Source: an unicellular cyanobacterium SU3 (GTDB taxonomy: Bacteria > Cyanobacteriota > Cyanobacteriia > Cyanobacteriales > Microcystaceae). From it: a stretch of 59,803 nt of DNA. This document shows positions 4,812-44,024 of this stretch, in pieces. Below the pieces are notes generated by a model, which was not told the DNA's origin, made no database searches, and saw only the letters and a list, made by a program, of their open reading frames with translations. The translations under genes were made by a program, and so were the position numbers. The number at the start of each line of letters is the position of its first letter. Position 1 is the stretch's first letter. The stretch lies in the NCBI GenBank assembly GCA_002172675.1, contig NETF01000163.1, positions 1 to 59,803 on the forward strand, written 5' to 3'.

Positions 4812-7292
4812 TTAACTGTTGTTATCAAAATAATTTAGTAAACTGACTCTAATTTGTGGAAAGTGATCTAAGGTATTAGATAATTTTTCAATATCGAACA
4901 GACGAACATTACTAACTAATATTTCACTATATTGTACGAGTATTTGACAATGATAAGTCTGTCCTAAATTTTTGAGTTCATGACAAAATTGTTGAATTTC
5001 TGATAGGATCATTCTTCGACGGATTAAGTTCCAGGAATTGTCTTCTATTTCTTGTAATTCTTGTAATAAATCAGATAGATTATTGATGCTTTCATAATCT
5101 GATGCTGTTAGAGAAAACTCTATTTTAGTTTTTTGTTCTTCTTTTTTACCTAAAATATTACTAAGAACTTCTACAAGCTGAGCGTAGTTAATCGGGTATT
5201 CAAGAAATCCTTGAAAAAGACTGTTATTATTTTCTTCTATCTTAATAGAGATATCAGTTATGGCAATGATAGGAATAGTTTTATTTTGTTTTTGTAAAAG
5301 TTTTGATGTTTTTAAGTCATTATCAATATTATTAAGCGTTAAGTGAATTAATATCGTATCAATACAATAATTATTAAGTAGATTAACCGCCATTTCCTCA
5401 TTATCAGCAAAGAATAAATGATGTTCAGTCTCAGCAAAATAACCCTTAATTACATTACAATCATCAAGAACATTGTCAATGACTAAAATATTCACAGTAT
5501 CAAAGTCATATAGGGTTTTCTGATAAGAAGTTTCTTCTAAATCTTGCCTTGAATCAAGAATTTCTACATTAGGAAAAACTACAGTAAAAGTAGAACCTTT
5601 TCCCCATTCACTTTCCAATGTTATGGTTCCTCCTAAACATTCTGTAATTTTGTGAGTAATAAATAAACCTAATCCATTACCTCCATATCGATAGGAATTT
5701 TGTCTTTTACTTTGGGTAAATGCTTGAAAAATTCGCTCTTTATCTTCATCTTTAATGCCAATTCCTGTATCTTCTACAACGATTTTTAAGGAACAACAAT
5801 TGGCAGATAACTCTTCAATACTAATAATAATTTTAATATGACCTTCTGTGGTAAATTTCAAAGCATTACCAATAAGATTAACTAAAATTTGACGTAATCG
5901 TAGAGAATCAAAATTGAGAAATTCAGGAACATTATCTTTAATATCTATTAAAAAACGCGCTGGTGTTTTGAATAATTGACTAGAAAAAAGTTTTGTGGTT
6001 TCCCTAAAAAAATTTCTAACGGAAAAACAAGAATAATTTAATTCTATTTTTCCAGCTTCAACTTGATTAATATCCAGTAATTCGTTAATCAAAGATAAAA
6101 GAATGTTACTATTATTATAAATCATATCAACATATTCATAAATAAGAGGATCGTCAACCTTTAATTTTGACTTGAGAAGTTCAGAGAATCCCAAGATTGC
6201 ATTCATAGGAGTGCGAAGTTCATGACTAATACTTGTTAAAAATTCGGTCTTTGCTTGATTGGCTAAATCTGCTTCGGTCTTCGCTTTAATAATTGCTCCT
6301 TCTGCTTTTTTTCTGTCCGTAATTTCCCTAAAAGAAACTAAATAAACTGATTCATTTTCCCATTCTGTCACAGTAACATTCATTTCAACTATACCTGTTT
6401 TATTATTAGCTTTGATAATTTCTACTTCTACGGGTTTATCTTTAATAATAGGAATGCCGAACTCATAATCTAATAAAGTTTGTAATGGTTGCTCAAAAAT
6501 CGTTAAAGCAACAGGATTCGCAAATTTGATTTTCCCTTCTTTATTAACAACAAGAATTCCATTTTCAATATTATAAACCAAATCCCGAAATTTCTTTTCT
6601 TGCTTGACTAATTGTGATTGAAATTTTTTATTTCGTTTAATTTCTTCTCGTAAGTTATCGTTACTCTTCTCTAATTGATCAGTTCTTTCTCTTACTAATT
6701 TTTCTAAATTTTTATTGATTTTTTCTAGTTTCTTTTCGGTTCGCATTTTTTCTAATTCTCTAGCTGCACTGATAGCAAAAATATCAATAATTTTAGGTAA
6801 TAGTTTTTTGTTTCTTAAAGGAGAACTATTCATCACACACAGTAACCCTATTATTTCCTTTTTTTGATCATATAAAGCTATACCTATATAGCTTTCAATA
6901 TTATTCTTTTGGATCAAATCATCATTTACAAAAATTTTTTTTACATTATCATAACAAATATATTTACCTTCTTTTAAAACAATTTCATAAGGAGTATTAC
7001 TTAATTGATAAACACGGTCATCACATTTTTTTCCTCTAAAAGAACCAGCTAAAGTTATGGCAGAATTTTCATTTTCTAATTGACTAACAAAAGCATAGTC
7101 AATTTCTAAAACTTGAGTTAAATGAAAGACTAATGATTGAAAAAAATCTTCTCTTTGAGTTGAGGATATTCCTAAGAAAATATTCTGTAAAATATCGGAA
7201 AAACTTTGAACATTATTGAGCTTATTGACATTAATTATGGTCTTCTTGGTTTGGTTAGAAAGTTGGGAATGAATGGGAGAATCACTTGACAT
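4812..7292 (-). CDS. Hybrid sensor histidine kinase (GAF-PAS-HisKA-HATPase-degenerate receiver)
   Basis: About 826 residues with no membrane segment. In order, using numbering from the TTG at 7310: a GAF domain (about 40-185), a coiled coil (185-240), a PAS domain (about 240-335), the phospho-acceptor H-box SISHELRTPMNAIL with His near 363, the N-box NLIGNALKF, G-boxes VEDTGIGIKDED and GGNGLGLF, then a receiver-like domain (about 610-735) and a helical tail. The receiver is degenerate: the usual phosphorylated Asp is His in TILIHLTLN and the conserved Lys before Pro is Tyr in FLEYPI. It may therefore regulate the kinase without accepting phosphate. The start is the ATG at 7292 or the upstream TTG at 7310; neither has a good ribosome binding site. 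Confidence 0.85.
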   Translation of the reverse strand: MSSDSPIHSQLSNQTKKTIINVNKLNNVQSFSDILQNIFLGISSTQREDFFQSLVFHLTQVLEIDYAFVSQLENENSAITLAGSFRGKKCDDRVYQLSNTPYEIVLKEGKYICYDNVKKIFVNDDLIQKNNIESYIGIALYDQKKEIIGLLCVMNSSPLRNKKLLPKIIDIFAISAARELEKMRTEKKLEKINKNLEKLVRERTDQLEKSNDNLREEIKRNKKFQSQLVKQEKKFRDLVYNIENGILVVNKEGKIKFANPVALTIFEQPLQTLLDYEFGIPIIKDKPVEVEIIKANNKTGIVEMNVTVTEWENESVYLVSFREITDRKKAEGAIIKAKTEADLANQAKTEFLTSISHELRTPMNAILGFSELLKSKLKVDDPLIYEYVDMIYNNSNILLSLINELLDINQVEAGKIELNYSCFSVRNFFRETTKLFSSQLFKTPARFLIDIKDNVPEFLNFDSLRLRQILVNLIGNALKFTTEGHIKIIISIEELSANCCSLKIVVEDTGIGIKDEDKERIFQAFTQSKRQNSYRYGGNGLGLFITHKITECLGGTITLESEWGKGSTFTVVFPNVEILDSRQDLEETSYQKTLYDFDTVNILVIDNVLDDCNVIKGYFAETEHHLFFADNEEMAVNLLNNYCIDTILIHLTLNNIDNDLKTSKLLQKQNKTIPIIAITDISIKIEENNNSLFQGFLEYPINYAQLVEVLSNILGKKEEQKTKIEFSLTASDYESINNLSDLLQELQEIEDNSWNLIRRRMILSEIQQFCHELKNLGQTYHCQILVQYSEILVSNVRLFDIEKLSNTLDHFPQIRVSLLNYFDNNS

Positions 7293-31235: not shown

Positions 31236-32390
31236 GTGGCAGTGCTAGAACCCCCCAACCATCAAACAACCGCTAAAACTGATCAGACTGCATCGATGTC
31301 GATTCAGTTATTGTTGTTTGTCGATGAGCGTCCCAGTTCCCATGAATATATTCAACCCATCCGAGACTACGTCAAAACCGTCAGCGAACATTGTTCTTGC
31401 CAGTTAGAAGTCATTGAAATTCATGAACAACCCCACCTAGTGGAGTATTTTCGCCTAGTAGCGACTCCGGCCTTAGTCAAAGTGGTACCCGAACCCAGAC
31501 AAACCCTAGCAGGCAGTAATCTCGTCAATCAACTGAAAAAATGGTGGCCAAAATGGCTATCATCCCTAGAAGAAAATCACAATGACTCATCAGTAGAAAA
31601 ATCTAGCAATGTTAGTTATTCAGGGGAACTCATGCGCCTTTCTGATGAAATCTTTCGTCTTAAGAAAGATAAAGAAAACTTACTTGAACAAATAAAGTTC
31701 AAAGATCAAGTTTTAGCCATGTTAGCCCATGATTTACGGAGTCCTTTAACGGCCGCTTCTATTGCAGTAGAAACCCTAGAACTAGCACAAAATCAAGCTC
31801 CTACTGAGAAAAAACAAAAATTAACCCTACAACTATTTCAACAAACCCGTAACCAATTTCGGGTGATGAATCGTCTGATTACAGACATTTTACAAGCATC
31901 CAAAAGCATGAATGCTCAACTGCAAGTTCACCAGACAGAAGTTTTCTTACCTCGCTTATCAAAGGAGATTGTAGAACAATATAACGATTTGTTAACAGAA
32001 AAATCCTTAAAATTAATCCAAGATGTTCCTCAAGACGTACCTGGGGTGTATGCCGATGAAGAATTAATCCGTCAGGTGATTGTCAACCTGATCGATAATG
32101 CGATTAAATATACACCAGAAGGAGGAGAAATTACCCTATCGATTCTCCACCGCACCAGTCAAAAAGTACAAGTCAGTGTTTGTGATACCGGGCCTGGGAT
32201 TCCTGAAGAAAAACAGGAGCGGATTTTTGAAGGTCACTTCCGCTTGCAAAGAGACCAAGGAAAAGAAGGTTATGGATTAGGGTTATCCTTATGTCGTAAA
32301 ATTATTCGTGTCCACTACGGCCAAATTTGGGTTGATAGTGTACCAGAACAGGGTAGTTGTTTTCATTTTACATTGCCTGTTTATCGTTAA
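31236..32390 (+). CDS. sasA: Circadian output histidine kinase SasA
   Basis: About 384 residues. The N-terminal part (about 21-110) is the KaiB-like thioredoxin-fold sensor (IQLLLFVDERPSSHEYIQ, LVEYFRLVATPALVKVVP) that binds KaiC. It is followed by a coiled coil and the H-box AMLAHDLRSPLTAA (His165 from the GTG start), N-box NLIDNAIKYTPEGG, and G-boxes CDTGPGIP and GYGLGLSLC. SasA passes KaiC state to the regulator RpaA. The start is a GTG at 31236; the ATG at 31296 would remove only 20 poorly conserved residues. Confidence 0.96.
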   Translation: MAVLEPPNHQTTAKTDQTASMSIQLLLFVDERPSSHEYIQPIRDYVKTVSEHCSCQLEVIEIHEQPHLVEYFRLVATPALVKVVPEPRQTLAGSNLVNQLKKWWPKWLSSLEENHNDSSVEKSSNVSYSGELMRLSDEIFRLKKDKENLLEQIKFKDQVLAMLAHDLRSPLTAASIAVETLELAQNQAPTEKKQKLTLQLFQQTRNQFRVMNRLITDILQASKSMNAQLQVHQTEVFLPRLSKEIVEQYNDLLTEKSLKLIQDVPQDVPGVYADEELIRQVIVNLIDNAIKYTPEGGEITLSILHRTSQKVQVSVCDTGPGIPEEKQERIFEGHFRLQRDQGKEGYGLGLSLCRKIIRVHYGQIWVDSVPEQGSCFHFTLPVYR

Positions 32391-39346: not shown

Positions 39347-39460
39347 TGGCTCAAAATCCTCGTTGTTAATTGGACTAAGTTTTTTATATTGTTTGATTAC
39401 CTCGCTAATTCTAATTTTTAAAATTCATTTCAGCATCCGTCTTAGGTTTGAGTATACTGT

Positions 39461-39532
39461 ACTCCGACACTTCTTCCATTAGAACCAAAAATAATGGGAG
39501 TGTCTTCTTTTAATGGTTCCCACCCGACATTA
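39461..39532. repeat. Direct repeat, copy A (72 bp) flanking the toxin
   Basis: These 72 bases match 39889-39960 at 64 positions in the same orientation, without gaps. Copy B is the genuine 3' end of the ExbD-like gene; copy A, read on the minus strand, still encodes NVGWEPLKEDTPIIFGSNG and so is a detached duplicate of that gene end. Its last three bases are the stop codon of the toxin. Confidence 0.85.
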
Positions 39533-39814
39533 ATAAACTTCATCATGTGAACCGATCGCTAACAGTACAATTTCTTCAGTTTTTAGTTCGACATTGTCCA
39601 TAAACTGAAAAACGATACGATTACTATAGTCAATTGAACATGACCATTTATTAGCAAGTTTACCCTTAAACTTATGGGTTTTTAAACTAGGATCAAAGGG
39701 CTCATTAGCTAATTTTTCTAAGGTTTGTTCAATCATCTTTTTAATTGGTGGGTTTTGACGGACTAAACGTTTAAGTTGACGGATAAAATTAGCACTCCAA
39801 ACTAATTCTTCCAT
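39530..39814 (-). CDS. RelE/YafQ-type mRNA interferase toxin
   Basis: A 94-residue toxin of the Txe/RelE superfamily: LVWSANFIRQLKRLVRQNP at the start, LANEPFDPSLKTHKFKGKL, then WSCSIDYSNRIVFQF and LAIGSHDEVY. Such toxins cut mRNA on the ribosome. The ORF is intact, but the antitoxin that should overlap its start is reduced to 22 codons (39802-39870). The toxin lies between 72-bp direct repeats and interrupts the region after the ExbD-like gene. It may be silent or neutralised by an antitoxin from elsewhere. Confidence 0.88.
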   Translation of the reverse strand: MEELVWSANFIRQLKRLVRQNPPIKKMIEQTLEKLANEPFDPSLKTHKFKGKLANKWSCSIDYSNRIVFQFMDNVELKTEEIVLLAIGSHDEVY

Positions 39815-39881: not shown

Positions 39882-40583
39882 TTATTGGACTCCGACGCTT
39901 CTTCCATTAGAGCCAAAAACAATAGGAGTTTCTTTTTTTAAAGGTTCCCATCCGACATTATAACCAGCTTTCCATGCTTGTTTTCTCGCTGCTCTAAATG
40001 CAGAAAAACTATCAGGACGAACTAAAAACGCTAAATAATCTGTATTTGAATCAAATTTTTCTAAGGTTTTATTGAACTCTGAATCGGTTTGAGCAATGGT
40101 TTTATAAGATTCTCCTGTATCGGGAGTTAAAGGTTCATAAATTAGTGCATCTAGGTCATAAAATGATACTTTATAATGTTCAGTTTGTCCTTTAAATTGT
40201 TGAAAACTTTTAATAGTTTGCGCTCGACAATTTTCATATTCTTGAAGACGATTGATATAAAATTGATAAGTGTAAGTATCTAAGTTCTCGGGAAGTTCAG
40301 GAACAGAACATTCGGGTAAATTTTTCATTAAAAGGGCAATTTGACGATCAACTTCTTCATCATTAAGATAAGAGATTTTATTATTTCTAACTTCAAAAAA
40401 GCGCGGTTTTTTCTCAGTATTAGATACTAAAGGCGTTGTCACAATGGTACTGGATTCGACTGCGACAACGGTAATAAATAAACTAATAAACATTAATACA
40501 CCGACGGTATTAGTGAGAATATCTAAAAAAGAATCTAGATTTTGACTGGGTGAGTTTAGCTTACGATATCTTCTAGTTCTCAT
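39882..40583 (-). CDS. ExbD/TolR-like subunit B2 of a putative ion-driven motor
   Basis: A 233-residue bitopic protein: basic N-terminus, one membrane helix (about 20-43) with SFLDILTNTVGVL, and a periplasmic part ending in the module YLAFLVRPDSFSAFRAARKQ..GYNVGWEPL. The Asp in FLD aligns with the proton-carrying Asp of ExbD (FID) and MotB (FAD). A similar end module occurs in the preceding gene's product. Its start overlaps that gene's stop by 11 bases, so they are co-translated. No peptidoglycan-binding OmpA domain is seen. Function unknown. Confidence 0.7.
   Translation of the reverse strand: MRTRRYRKLNSPSQNLDSFLDILTNTVGVLMFISLFITVVAVESSTIVTTPLVSNTEKKPRFFEVRNNKISYLNDEEVDRQIALLMKNLPECSVPELPENLDTYTYQFYINRLQEYENCRAQTIKSFQQFKGQTEHYKVSFYDLDALIYEPLTPDTGESYKTIAQTDSEFNKTLEKFDSNTDYLAFLVRPDSFSAFRAARKQAWKAGYNVGWEPLKKETPIVFGSNGRSVGVQ
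39889..39960. repeat. Direct repeat, copy B (72 bp)
   Basis: This copy lies within the 3' end of the ExbD-like B2 gene and is 64/72 identical to 39461-39532. Confidence 0.85.
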
Positions 40584-41049
40584 TGTTGTTTCCTTCTTCT
40601 ATTTTTAATTTCCAATCTTGATCAATGGGTTCATATCCAATATCAATCCCCTTTTCTTCTACTATGTCTCTCACTTGTTGAAAGACATCAATTCCTTGGG
40701 GACGAAGGACAACAATTAAATATTGTCTATCTTTGTTTTTTTGTACCTCTCTAATTAATTGATTTAGGGGTGATCGCCGATTATCAATTTCAGATTTAGG
40801 AACAAAGACTTGACTGGGATGTAATAAAACACCATCCTCTCTACATTCTATATATTTCGGTATTTTACCTTGATTTTCTCCTGTGGTTTCTTGTTTAGCA
40901 ATAATGGTAATTTCCCGTTCATTTTTTAAGAGTTGGGTAGTTAAAACAATAATCAATAAAATGAGTGTACCAATGGTACAAGCTAATATAGAAAGAAAGG
41001 GAAATAACTCCACTTCTAGGGAATTTTTAGCAACAGAACGACGACGCAT
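40573..41049 (-). CDS. ExbD-like subunit B1, lacking the membrane Asp
   Basis: A 158-residue bitopic protein: membrane helix about 17-38 within LFPFLSILACTIGTLILLI and a periplasmic domain ending YLIVVLRPQGIDVFQQVRDI..GIDIGYEP. Helix and end domain both align with those of B2, but the position of the ion-binding Asp is Ser (FLS against FLD). Glu residues precede the helix (LEVELF) and might substitute. The gene lies three bases after the channel gene and overlaps the B2 gene, making a tight three-gene unit. Confidence 0.7.
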   Translation of the reverse strand: MRRRSVAKNSLEVELFPFLSILACTIGTLILLIIVLTTQLLKNEREITIIAKQETTGENQGKIPKYIECREDGVLLHPSQVFVPKSEIDNRRSPLNQLIREVQKNKDRQYLIVVLRPQGIDVFQQVRDIVEEKGIDIGYEPIDQDWKLKIEEGNNNEN

Positions 41050-41052
41050 AGA

Positions 41053-42231
41053 TTAAATTTCTTCTGAGTCAGTAAAGGTAATTAAACGAGGTTTGCTTAA
41101 TTTTTCTAAGATGGGTTGAATGTGTTTAATTTCTGTAATCATAGACTGAGAAAGTTCTCGGTTAACATTTAATTGCTGATTTAATGTTTCTAAAAATTTA
41201 CTTTTTTCTTCAATACTCATATTATTAATTTGTTCAATTTGTTCAATTAAATTACCGCTTAAATTTTGTAATTTTTCAATTTCTAAAATAAAGCTTTGAG
41301 AAAAGGTTTCGGCTGCTTGTTGGGCATAGATTTCTGCAGGTTTAATTAAGGCTTCAGGATTGGGTAAATAGTCTTGAAATGCTTGACGAATGGATTGATT
41401 AATGCCATTGTAATCTAAGTTTTCACTCTTTTCTTTGAGACGAGGTAAGACTAAATCATTGACATAAATATCAATTCTTAGAAGTAAGCGCGATTCCATT
41501 CTTTCCACTAAAACTAAGGGAATCATTACCAAAACACTTAATAGTAAAGCTAATAAAGTGGTATCAAATGCCACTGCTAAACCACTGGTAACAGTGCCAA
41601 TTCCTTCTTTAATTTGTTCAATTTCCCCTGCTTGTTCTAGGAAACTAGAAAACCCATTTACTGCTTGACTAATACCAATAACAGTTCCAATAAATCCTAA
41701 TAATGGAATTGCCCAAACTAAGACACGAGGAAAACTATAAGAAGTATCAGTCGCACTTAAATAAAACGTAGAATCATCTAGGGCTAATTCTGAGGCAATT
41801 TTACGACTTCCTGATTGAATATAAGCGGATAAAATGCGACTACACCGAATGGGAAGAAGTTGATTGTGTTTGGTTAAATTGTTTTGTAATGTTAGTAAAT
41901 CTCGCGACCTGGGATTATCAAAAGTGACAGTTTGGGGAACCCAAGAACGCCGTAAGGCTAAAGCTTCTTGTTGTAATTTAATCAGTTTAAGAACTGTCAA
42001 CGAAACCACAAAACAAGCTAAATAAATGACCAAAAATTGGGTAAATCCTCTTTCGTATAAAAGAACTCCAATAAAAGTAGCTCTTAAAAATAATAAAGTC
42101 AGGGTATAAATAGCAATAAATAATAATAAAGCTATCACAGACACTAACCAGAAATTAACTTCTAATTTCTTCCGTTCAGCATCCCCTGATAATAATAGAT
42201 ATTGATTGGTTTCTTTGGTTGTTGTGTTCAT
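41053..42231 (-). CDS. MotA/TolQ/ExbB-family channel subunit with coiled-coil tail
   Basis: About 392 residues. Four membrane helices: about 25-47 and 60-80 near the N-terminus, then about 165-188 (PLLGFIGTVIGISQAV) and 205-235 (SGLAVAFDTTLLALLLSVL). The last two carry the MotA/TolQ/ExbB signature including the GTVxGI turn and Thr residues lining the ion path. The final 100 residues are a predicted cytoplasmic coiled coil, unusual for ExbB but reminiscent of ZorA. The start is the ATG at 42231 with GAGG just before; the frame opens at a TTG (42237). First gene of the unit with B1 and B2. Confidence 0.85.
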   Translation of the reverse strand: MNTTTKETNQYLLLSGDAERKKLEVNFWLVSVIALLLFIAIYTLTLLFLRATFIGVLLYERGFTQFLVIYLACFVVSLTVLKLIKLQQEALALRRSWVPQTVTFDNPRSRDLLTLQNNLTKHNQLLPIRCSRILSAYIQSGSRKIASELALDDSTFYLSATDTSYSFPRVLVWAIPLLGFIGTVIGISQAVNGFSSFLEQAGEIEQIKEGIGTVTSGLAVAFDTTLLALLLSVLVMIPLVLVERMESRLLLRIDIYVNDLVLPRLKEKSENLDYNGINQSIRQAFQDYLPNPEALIKPAEIYAQQAAETFSQSFILEIEKLQNLSGNLIEQIEQINNMSIEEKSKFLETLNQQLNVNRELSQSMITEIKHIQPILEKLSKPRLITFTDSEEI

Positions 42232-42393: not shown

Positions 42394-43815
42394 TTAAGAT
42401 AAGGGTAACAGAATGGTGAAGGTTGTGCCTTGATTGGGTTGAGAAATAACATAAATGGTTCCCCCCATCCCTTCTACTAAAGTTTTGACGATAGATAAAC
42501 CCAATCCGGTTCCCCCAACATTGCGACTTCTGGCTTCATCTATCCGATAAAATCGCTCAAAAATGCGAGTTTGATCTGCTAAAGGAATACCCACACCGCG
42601 ATCGCACACTTCTATTTTGGCCTGTTGTTTATTATTATTCAATTTAATCAGAATTGGCTCCGAAGAATGGGAGTATTTAACTGCATTGTCAATTAAGTTT
42701 AAAAATACTTGTTTAAGACGATTTTTATCCCCTTTGACTTTGATCAATTGATCAGGAAGAAAAAGGTTCACAGAAATCGGATATTGATGCACCATTCCCT
42801 CAATTTCGGTTAATAACTCATTCAGGATAATGGTTTCGAGGTTAAAATACATCCCTCCATGTTCAGCCCTAGCTAAATCTAACAAATCCTGTAATAATTG
42901 AACGGTGCGATCGGCTTCTGAGGAAGCGGTTTCTAAGGCTTCGCGTTGGATATCTGTTAAATTATGACCCCGTCGTAGGGTACTTTGTAAATAGCCAGAA
43001 ACCACCGTTAATGGGGTGCGTAACTCATGGGAAACGTTGCTGACTAACTGACGTTGATCTTCCCAAGCGTTAGACAGACGAGTTAAGGTCGTTTGTAGGG
43101 TTTGGGCTAATTCTTTGACCTCACTGGGAGCATTTTCTAGTTCAAGTTGTACCTTTCCCAAGGTTTCCGGGGCAATATCTTTTGTCATCTGACTCATACG
43201 TTTAAGGGGTGTCAAAGACGTTTGGATGTACCAAGCGATCGCCATTGTCATCAGAATCGTTGCAATAACACTAATGATTAACAGACTACGCATCACACCC
43301 CAAAACATCATTTGATCTTTGGTAATATCTTGAGCAAGATAAAACTGTCCGAGATTAACCCCTTTTACCACTAATTTTGTCGAACATAACAACCAATAAC
43401 GATTATTAACCTTTTGCAATTCTGGTTGTGGGGAAATATCAGTTAAAGAGACTAAATTGCTTCCTGTCATTCCCATTTGTAAAGCTTGAGACTGGGCAAA
43501 AATTTCCCCTTGAGGAGTTTTTACCCATAGTAAGGTTTGAGGATTAGATAGGTTATCGATGGCTTTTTGGGTTCCTTCTTCTAGGGAAACCATATCGCTA
43601 TAGATTTCTACATCAGAAGGAAAACGATCTGCAATGTAGCGTGTATTATTTTTATGGGTGACAACCAAAATACTCTGCATCTGCCAACTAATCCAAAGTA
43701 CCACGCCACTTAATCCTAAAATCGATACGGCAGCAATACCTACGGTTAGTCGAAGTCGCAGAGAAGTCAGCTTAGAAACTTGTTTCACATTAGGGAACGA
43801 TTTGATGAGGAACAT
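42394..43815 (-). CDS. Membrane sensor histidine kinase
   Basis: About 473 residues from the ATG at 43815. Two helices (about 26-48 and 178-200) enclose a periplasmic sensing region of some 130 residues. A HAMP linker follows (SLTPLKRMSQMTKDIAPETL), then the H-box LVSNVSHELRTPLTVV (His263), N-box NLIDNAVKYS and G-boxes CDRGVGIP and GGTGLGLSIV. The stimulus is unknown. No regulator adjoins it; the OmpR-type regulator at 54546 is one candidate partner only by proximity. The domain set is the common EnvZ/PhoR type. Confidence 0.93.
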   Translation of the reverse strand: MFLIKSFPNVKQVSKLTSLRLRLTVGIAAVSILGLSGVVLWISWQMQSILVVTHKNNTRYIADRFPSDVEIYSDMVSLEEGTQKAIDNLSNPQTLLWVKTPQGEIFAQSQALQMGMTGSNLVSLTDISPQPELQKVNNRYWLLCSTKLVVKGVNLGQFYLAQDITKDQMMFWGVMRSLLIISVIATILMTMAIAWYIQTSLTPLKRMSQMTKDIAPETLGKVQLELENAPSEVKELAQTLQTTLTRLSNAWEDQRQLVSNVSHELRTPLTVVSGYLQSTLRRGHNLTDIQREALETASSEADRTVQLLQDLLDLARAEHGGMYFNLETIILNELLTEIEGMVHQYPISVNLFLPDQLIKVKGDKNRLKQVFLNLIDNAVKYSHSSEPILIKLNNNKQQAKIEVCDRGVGIPLADQTRIFERFYRIDEARSRNVGGTGLGLSIVKTLVEGMGGTIYVISQPNQGTTFTILLPLS

Positions 43816-44024
43816 TGCCAGCAATGTAAGAGTAAGTTATCCTCATACTCTCACAATTGACTAAACTCTAAATGATAGAAAGCTGAGTTTTAGCTGAAAG
43901 AAAGATTTATCATGATAATCTTTCCCCTAACTATTGGATGATAGCGTAGAGGTGAGGCTTTTTGATAGTATCTTGAGGAGAGAGTGTATCTTCTCAATTA
44001 TTGTTATACATTACAAAAGAAACC

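Follow-up and report, generated by a model that had tools for sequence, protein, structure and literature searches.

Can one ion-driven motor of the bacterial inner membrane be built around two unlike axle chains, of which usually only one carries the ion-site aspartate? The question is raised by a locus in the unicellular cyanobacterium SU3 (assembly GCA_002172675.1, contig NETF01000163.1, positions 1 to 59,803; the whole stretch of 59,803 nucleotides is hereafter called the window), where a channel subunit of the MotA/TolQ/ExbB type (A) is encoded together with two different single-helix proteins (B1 and B2). It is proposed here, at a probability of roughly 0.55, that A, B1 and B2 assemble into a single ion-driven complex of the inner membrane, belonging to the ExbBD/MotAB/ZorAB class and normally having a mixed B1-B2 axle.

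A three-gene unit and its channel subunit

The three genes lie on the minus strand, and the coordinates given by an earlier reading of the letters alone (the sequence-only reading) proved right when the open reading frames (ORFs) and their starts were re-read:

41053..42231, minus strand: A, MotA/TolQ/ExbB-type channel subunit, 392 amino acids (aa)
40573..41049, minus strand: B1, 158 aa, with a single membrane helix that has Ser where ExbD has Asp, and a periplasmic domain of predicted TolR/ExbD type
39882..40583, minus strand: B2, 233 aa, with a single membrane helix that contains Asp (in NLDSFLD), and a periplasmic part larger than that of B1

The start of A is an ATG at 42231, while an upstream TTG start would give 394 aa. 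A gap of 3 bp separates the stop of A (end at 41053) from the ATG of B1 (41049), and B2 begins inside the 3' end of B1 with an overlap of 11 bp, in agreement with the tightly spaced unit described before.

The assignment of A to the MotA/TolQ/ExbB family is borne out by a match to PF01618 (MotA_ExbB) of 29.7 bits, above the cut-off of 22.9, and by four membrane segments recognized by hydropathy, the same method giving one segment each for B1 and B2. The fourth segment carries the motif AFDTT (Asp-Thr-Thr), present in 31 of the 32 A rows with letters (ALDTT in the remaining one, genome G080) and in 37/39 proteins of a second A set (GFDTT in 2/39). Past this segment follows a cytoplasmic tail of 127 aa with a hydrophobic period of 3.4-3.65 residues, which was matched by 1 of 1000 shuffles; a heptad-like period of this kind was found in all nine A proteins tested (0 to 1.4% of 1000 shuffles each). 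The sequence-only reading saw in this tail a resemblance to ZorA of the Zorya defence system. As to the tail with its heptad-like period the resemblance stands, but the profile likeness is weak (24.3 bits against NCBIfam ZorA_2, below the cut-off of 100, and 19.4 bits against the PADLOC ZorA model). Close relatives of A, with 87-94% identity, were named Crocosphaera/Cyanothece matches in a contig scan with short A peptides, a scan that detects close relatives only.

B1 and B2 are related chains

Neither B1 nor B2 matches any Pfam or NCBIfam family above its cut-off, PF02472 (ExbD) giving no match at E <= 0.1, and searches of PDB sequences with the A, B1 and B2 profiles returned nothing meaningful. 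As judged from their profiles, the two are nevertheless relatives with a C-terminal domain in common: a profile-profile comparison gave a probability of 95.4% and an E-value of 1.7e-8 over 79 columns of this domain, the membrane helix lying outside the alignment, and in a local ORF set the B1 profile found B2 proteins, and the reverse, at E-values of about 1e-12 to 1e-6. The shared C-terminal pattern noticed in the first reading is hence above chance. The membrane helices, said to align, do so without gaps by eye, ELFPFLSILACTIGTL over NLDSFLDILTNTVGVL, and in this alignment both Ser20 (B1) and Asp21 (B2) correspond to ExbD Asp25. According to PMC6778125, the two Asp25 residues of ExbD are close to the threonine ring of ExbB.

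The AlphaFold model of B1 (mean predicted local distance difference test, pLDDT, 69.7) consists of a long helix followed by a beta-alpha domain. Its top Foldseek match is TolR 5by4 (probability 0.99, E 0.014), and the first five also include ExbD 8p9r (0.97) and 8vgd (0.93) together with two ribosomal entries; the periplasmic domain of B1 is likely of the TolR/ExbD fold. The model of B2 (mean pLDDT 72.9) is poor in the membrane helix and good elsewhere; ahead of the domain common to B1 it has an additional helical hairpin.

B1 and B2 are retained together, also when unlinked

Relatives were searched within cyanobacteria, in a phylum sample of 292 genomes (B1 and B2 at E <= 0.001, A at E <= 1e-8) and an order sample of 388 genomes from 149 genera (B1 and B2 at E <= 1e-6). 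In the phylum sample B2 was found in 23, B1 in 22 and A in 21 genomes, and all 21 genomes with A carry both B genes. The B2 in excess there is a short remnant in G048, and the one B1-B2 pair beyond those 21 is that of G174, in which A and the start of B1 are broken. The order sample contains both B genes in 82 genomes and neither in 304, with B1 and B2 in 83 genomes each and, likewise, in 37 of the 149 genera each. The sole genome there with B2 and no B1 (G048) holds a 48-aa remnant of B2, and the sole one with B1 and no B2 (G455) is 63% complete and has its B1 as a fragment at a contig end. The search for A-B1-B2 triplets in other cyanobacteria, proposed as a check on the first reading, thus recovered a near-strict pairing of B1 and B2.

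The same reading held that homologues often found apart would speak against it. Physically they are often apart: of the 22 phylum-sample genomes that have both, 9 hold B1 and B2 at distant sites or on separate contigs, all three genes being dispersed in G089, G179, G247 and G280, and A-B1 being adjacent with B2 elsewhere in G109, G119, G145, G187 and G080. At the level of the genome, however, the pairing is intact. As B1 and B2 are kept together although separated, interdependence is favoured rather than weakened, and an obligate pairing of the two is well supported by these genome counts.

Three incomplete cases deserve mention. G174 has a 143-aa tail of A, a B1 with a broken start and an intact B2, with no other A in the genome, and in G393 the B1 has no N-terminus and no A lies within the 3.5 kb fetched, A not having been sought elsewhere in that genome; both are read as decay. 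G174 and G048 were considered as partial systems and rejected, the broken A and B1 of the former and the 48-aa B2 tail of the latter likewise being read as decay. An intact A with no adjacent B1 or B2 (locus L009) was considered as a counter-example; its B1 and B2 are on another contig, pointing to a contig break or rearrangement.

The three genes also share a history in the better-resolved groups. Trees built separately for A, B1 and B2, with 31 sets represented, agree in their main groups, which are the Crocosphaera lineage, families f8 and f24, and an Anabaena-like group, while the long rows of G181, G080, G014 and G070 are placed differently between trees. Two plasmids out of 72,556 records carry any of the genes, and both carry all three side by side. 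The copy on one of these, a Microcystis plasmid, is sister to that of G051 in the A, B1 and B2 trees (98/100, 84/99 and 100/100, respectively), so that the three genes appear to have travelled together. The two would belong to different families, G051 being of f5 and Microcystis, as we presume, of f1, the family of the window. No relatives of B2 were found in phage records queried with B2, nor in one scan of IMG/VR contigs with B2 peptides.

The ion-site residue and a natural helix swap

Among different proteins, the ion-site residue is Asp in 73/74 B2 (Ala in one), and in B1 it is Ser in 63/70, Asp in 4/70, Asn in one and Ala in one, with the helix lost in one. The distribution claimed from the single locus, Asp in B2 and Ser in B1, accordingly describes the window and most relatives, with exceptions, among them four Asp-bearing B1 and the B2 of G080. 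The single ion site claimed with it likewise holds for most members, but not for these four, where both chains carry Asp, nor for G080, where neither does. Judging from the residues, a single carboxylate per A-B1-B2 set is usual, not universal.

The four Asp-bearing B1 proteins (G471, G490, G357 and G344; loci L139-L142) combine a B2-like N-terminus and helix with the periplasmic domain of B1. The one that was scanned, from G357, matches PF02472 in register at 14.5 bits, below the cut-off of 25.4. The simplest reading of these sequences is that B1 acquired this segment from B2 by conversion. Such a conversion implies that the helices of B1 and B2 sit in matching positions and that a second carboxylate can be accommodated; the helix-swap genomes still retain two differing periplasmic domains. 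In G080 (L120, L121), where B1 and B2 are on different contigs, the helices of both have no conserved motifs and the Asp of B2 is lost, with A kept. This joint loss in both helices may be counted in favour of a mixed B1-B2 axle.

The helix swap bears on two other arrangements. One is that the motor is an A5:(B2)2 homodimer with two Asp, B1 being a separate regulator, plug or periplasmic adaptor derived from a duplicated B. B2 alone has all that a motor B chain needs, its Asp being nearly invariant, and its separation from A-B1 in some genomes indicates that tight translational coupling is unnecessary. However, 82 of the 83 B2-bearing genomes in the order sample have B1 as well, the remaining one holding just the B2 remnant, and the B2-type axle helix taken up by B1 in the four swap genomes fits an axle role better than that of an adaptor, which makes this arrangement rather unlikely. 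The other is that two complexes share A, an active A5:(B2)2 and an inert or braking A5:(B1)2, the balance of which would set the activity. This would be consistent with A and B1 remaining adjacent in the five genomes where B2 lies elsewhere, but an inert (B1)2 leaves both the Asp in four B1 and the retention of both B genes unexplained, and the arrangement appears improbable.

A proposed mixed-axle motor

In the structures of 5:2 motors the two axle chains are identical and both bear the Asp. In the mixed-axle motor favoured here, five copies of A would enclose a pair of B helices, normally one of B1 and one of B2, a stoichiometry taken from the family. B2 would supply the protonatable Asp at the ExbD Asp25 position and B1 would occupy the second place in the axle with its Ser, leaving one carboxylate per axle in most species. 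By analogy with known 5:2 motors, ions moving past a polar ring in A (GTV of the third and DTT of the fourth membrane segment) may rotate or displace the axle with respect to A, and with a single carboxylate about five ions would be needed per turn instead of ten. Since the periplasmic domains of B1 and B2 differ, the output side would also be asymmetric, B1 offering a bare TolR/ExbD-like domain and B2 one with an extra hairpin, and the cytoplasmic tail of A may provide a second output or a sensor, as in ZorA.

Several points weigh against this proposal. The fold match of B1 to TolR has an E-value of 0.014, and no PDB match reached 0.001; the models are of monomers and partly of low confidence, with a pLDDT under 50 in the helix of B2, and no ExbD or TolR is found among the 50 Foldseek matches listed for B2. 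The phylum and order samples overlap and related genomes are not independent, and each genome search scored first-look candidates up to a fixed number, so that absence means not found. In G174 and G393, B2 and a portion of B1 persist at a locus where A is truncated or missing. The joint presence of B1 and B2 would equally be expected if they worked in different complexes within a single pathway. The Asp in four B1 indicates that the single-carboxylate state is not obligatory and that the pairing persists without it, and G080 is free of Asp in both B chains. To these may be added tandem pairs of canonical ExbD genes in G033 and G045, of one genus, in which both chains carry Asp.

Comparison with known systems

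The closest parallel in composition is AglRQS, which serves gliding and sporulation in Myxococcus xanthus and, as here, comprises one MotA/TolQ/ExbB protein and two B-type proteins in one cluster (PMC9389320). AglQ and AglS both belong to PF02472 (PMC3169522), a family that neither B reaches here, and both are said to bear Asp (PMC9389320), which B1 usually does not. Whether the two pair as homo- or heterodimers is described as not known in that 2022 review (PMC9389320). The statement of the sequence-only reading that known motors use two identical B chains is therefore too strong, AglRQS having two B proteins (PMC9389320, PMC3169522) and the SU3 genome itself holding an ExbB-ExbD(Asp)-ExbD(Asn) set, and its claim that no system of such composition had been described is not supported as worded, since AglRQS consists of one A and two B-type proteins (PMC9389320). 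The novelty is accordingly narrower. Distinctive of this set are a conserved B partner without Asp, a natural swap of helices, and an almost strict joint presence of genes that frequently lie unlinked. Neither an A-B1-B2 triplet nor an Asp-less partner B chain appeared among the literature matches listed, which comprised titles and the starts of abstracts and included few subscription papers.

With ExbBD and TolQR of Escherichia coli the set shares the predicted periplasmic fold of B1 (TolR 5by4, ExbD 8p9r) and the Asp position of B2, but A differs in having four membrane segments and a tail, and the ExbBD structure contains two copies of one ExbD (PMC6778125), whereas B1 and B2 differ. Zorya offers a likeness in the cytoplasmic C-terminal bundle of ZorA (PMC11890865), and of the two NCBIfam models listed at E <= 0.1 for A, that of ZorA alone is of the MotA/TolQ/ExbB type. 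ZorB, in contrast, is described as one dimer-forming protein with a peptidoglycan-binding domain (PMC11890865), while here there are two B proteins and neither has such a domain.

A tandem ExbD parallel in cyanobacteria

An Asp-less second B chain also occurs in a second, distinct motor family of cyanobacteria, as read from its ion-site motifs. The SU3 genome holds four canonical ExbD genes above the PF02472 cut-off, and on contig C12 (92927-93796; L046, L047 and L070) one ExbB gene is followed by two tandem ExbD genes with the motifs PMIDV (Asp) in one and PMLNV (Asn) in the other. We take this operon to be the equivalent of Synechocystis sll0477-sll0479. It resembles A-B1-B2 in having one A and two B chains, one with and one without Asp, and differs from it in that its ExbD proteins are canonical (74.3 and 71.0 bits against PF02472) and its ExbB is 233 aa long. 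A divergent neighbour contains, by eye, a long Pro-rich TonB-like stretch. Of the 12 tandem ExbD pairs read in cyanobacteria, the C12 pair included, ten are Asp+Asn and two Asp+Asp, in a sample that leans to Asp+Asn as the Asn protein was the query and the best matches were fetched. Where an ExbD gene stands alone in the fetched stretch, Asp is present in all 23 readable cases, three more being unreadable.

Genomic neighbourhood and possible role

One further gene of the window lies close to A:

42394..43824, minus strand: histidine kinase with the domains HAMP-HisKA-HATPase_c, located upstream of A on the strand of A, at a distance of 162 bp

This kinase is possibly co-transcribed with A-B1-B2, judging from its position. 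A gene of the same sequence cluster as this kinase is found 19-219 bp upstream of A in nine of the ten other A loci of the Crocosphaera lineage (L004-L010, L012 and L102), and the tenth (L011) starts about 390 bp upstream of A, too near to reveal a kinase. Among the fetched loci from outside this lineage in which the gene preceding A is visible, none has such a kinase directly upstream. Such linkage raises the possibility that the complex is not a motor at all but a static or sensing assembly, an ion channel or an envelope sensor, perhaps coupled to the kinase in the Crocosphaera lineage, and no TonB, TolA or Pal-like partner was detected among the window neighbours scanned with Pfam. However, the confinement of the kinase to one lineage among the loci fetched, together with the near invariance of the Asp of B2 and of the polar residues of A, makes a motorless assembly a poor candidate.

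The scanned neighbours in the window, which contains 46 ORFs of at least 170 aa, are ordinary genes: a SasA-like kinase, a glycogen branching enzyme and a peptidyl-tRNA hydrolase. The first of these is a histidine kinase with a KaiB domain, at 31236-32390. In line with the first reading, a PADLOC scan of 15 window proteins, with A, B1 and B2 among them, found nothing like ZorC/D/E, and no OmpA-like or peptidoglycan-binding domain was found in A, B1 or B2 by Pfam.

Beyond the end of B2, its last 78 bp (39883-39960) are repeated at 39455-39532 with 87% identity, and between the two copies lies the ORF of a RelE/YafQ-type toxin of a toxin-antitoxin system (39530-39814). The pattern is as if the toxin gene had been inserted beside B2 together with a duplicate of the B2 end, and the interval from B2 to the toxin ORF resembles, by eye, the end of a cut antitoxin gene.

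A different setting is found on the two plasmids. In Anabaena cylindrica, cas10-cmr genes (type III-B) and a CARF-HEPN gene, the latter matching PADLOC CARF1--CARF_HEPN at 845 bits, are followed directly by A-B1-B2, with a viperin gene downstream; A scores 31.6 bits against the PADLOC ZorA model. The order CARF-HEPN, A, B1, B2 recurs in G149 and G078, two f5 genera in the tree group of Anabaena, and G048 holds remnants of both the CARF-HEPN and the A-B1-B2 region:

L100, 8387-12577: CARF-HEPN with A-B1-B2, Anabaena-like group
L103, 588-4808: CARF-HEPN with A-B1-B2, Anabaena-like group
L105, 6987-11230: CARF-HEPN with A-B1-B2, Anabaena-like group
L131, about 5600-5984: remnants of CARF-HEPN and A-B1-B2

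On the Microcystis plasmid, an oligonucleotide cyclase of the type found in cyclic oligonucleotide-based antiphage signalling systems (CBASS), a SLATT effector and a PLD-SNF2 helicase precede A-B1-B2, and the helicase, just upstream of A, has a 50-bit match to ZorD1. These settings suggest a defence role in some lineages. More specifically, and compatible with a mixed-axle motor, the set may act against phages in the manner of Zorya, or serve type III-B CRISPR or CBASS loci as an accessory, in at least some lineages. The location of both plasmid copies in defence regions, the recurrence of the CARF-HEPN arrangement, the weak matches of A to ZorA profiles in the window and in Anabaena, and the patchy distribution of the B genes in the order sample are all consistent with such a role. 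On the other hand, the neighbours scanned in the window are ordinary, the f24 genes adjoin gatC and hisF (named by eye), CARF-HEPN is absent directly upstream in L104, L106 and L107, three other f5 loci showing that side, the linkage may be one inherited event, and the window shows no ZorC/D/E-like gene among the proteins scanned with PADLOC. This role is regarded as less likely than not.

Implications

Taken more broadly, it is tentatively suggested, at odds somewhat below even, that cyanobacteria evolved at least twice, in A-B1-B2 and in ExbB-ExbD-ExbD(Asn), obligate two-chain axles with a single carboxylate, about five ions per turn and an asymmetric output, and that one lineage joined such a motor to type III-B CRISPR operons. 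If true, the one-Asp axle, its helix-swap relatives and the Asp-free G080 would constitute a ready-made series on whether such motors require both carboxylates. Such a series would address the number of ions that drive one step. The one-Asp axle would also be relevant to a possible pairing of AglQ with AglS.

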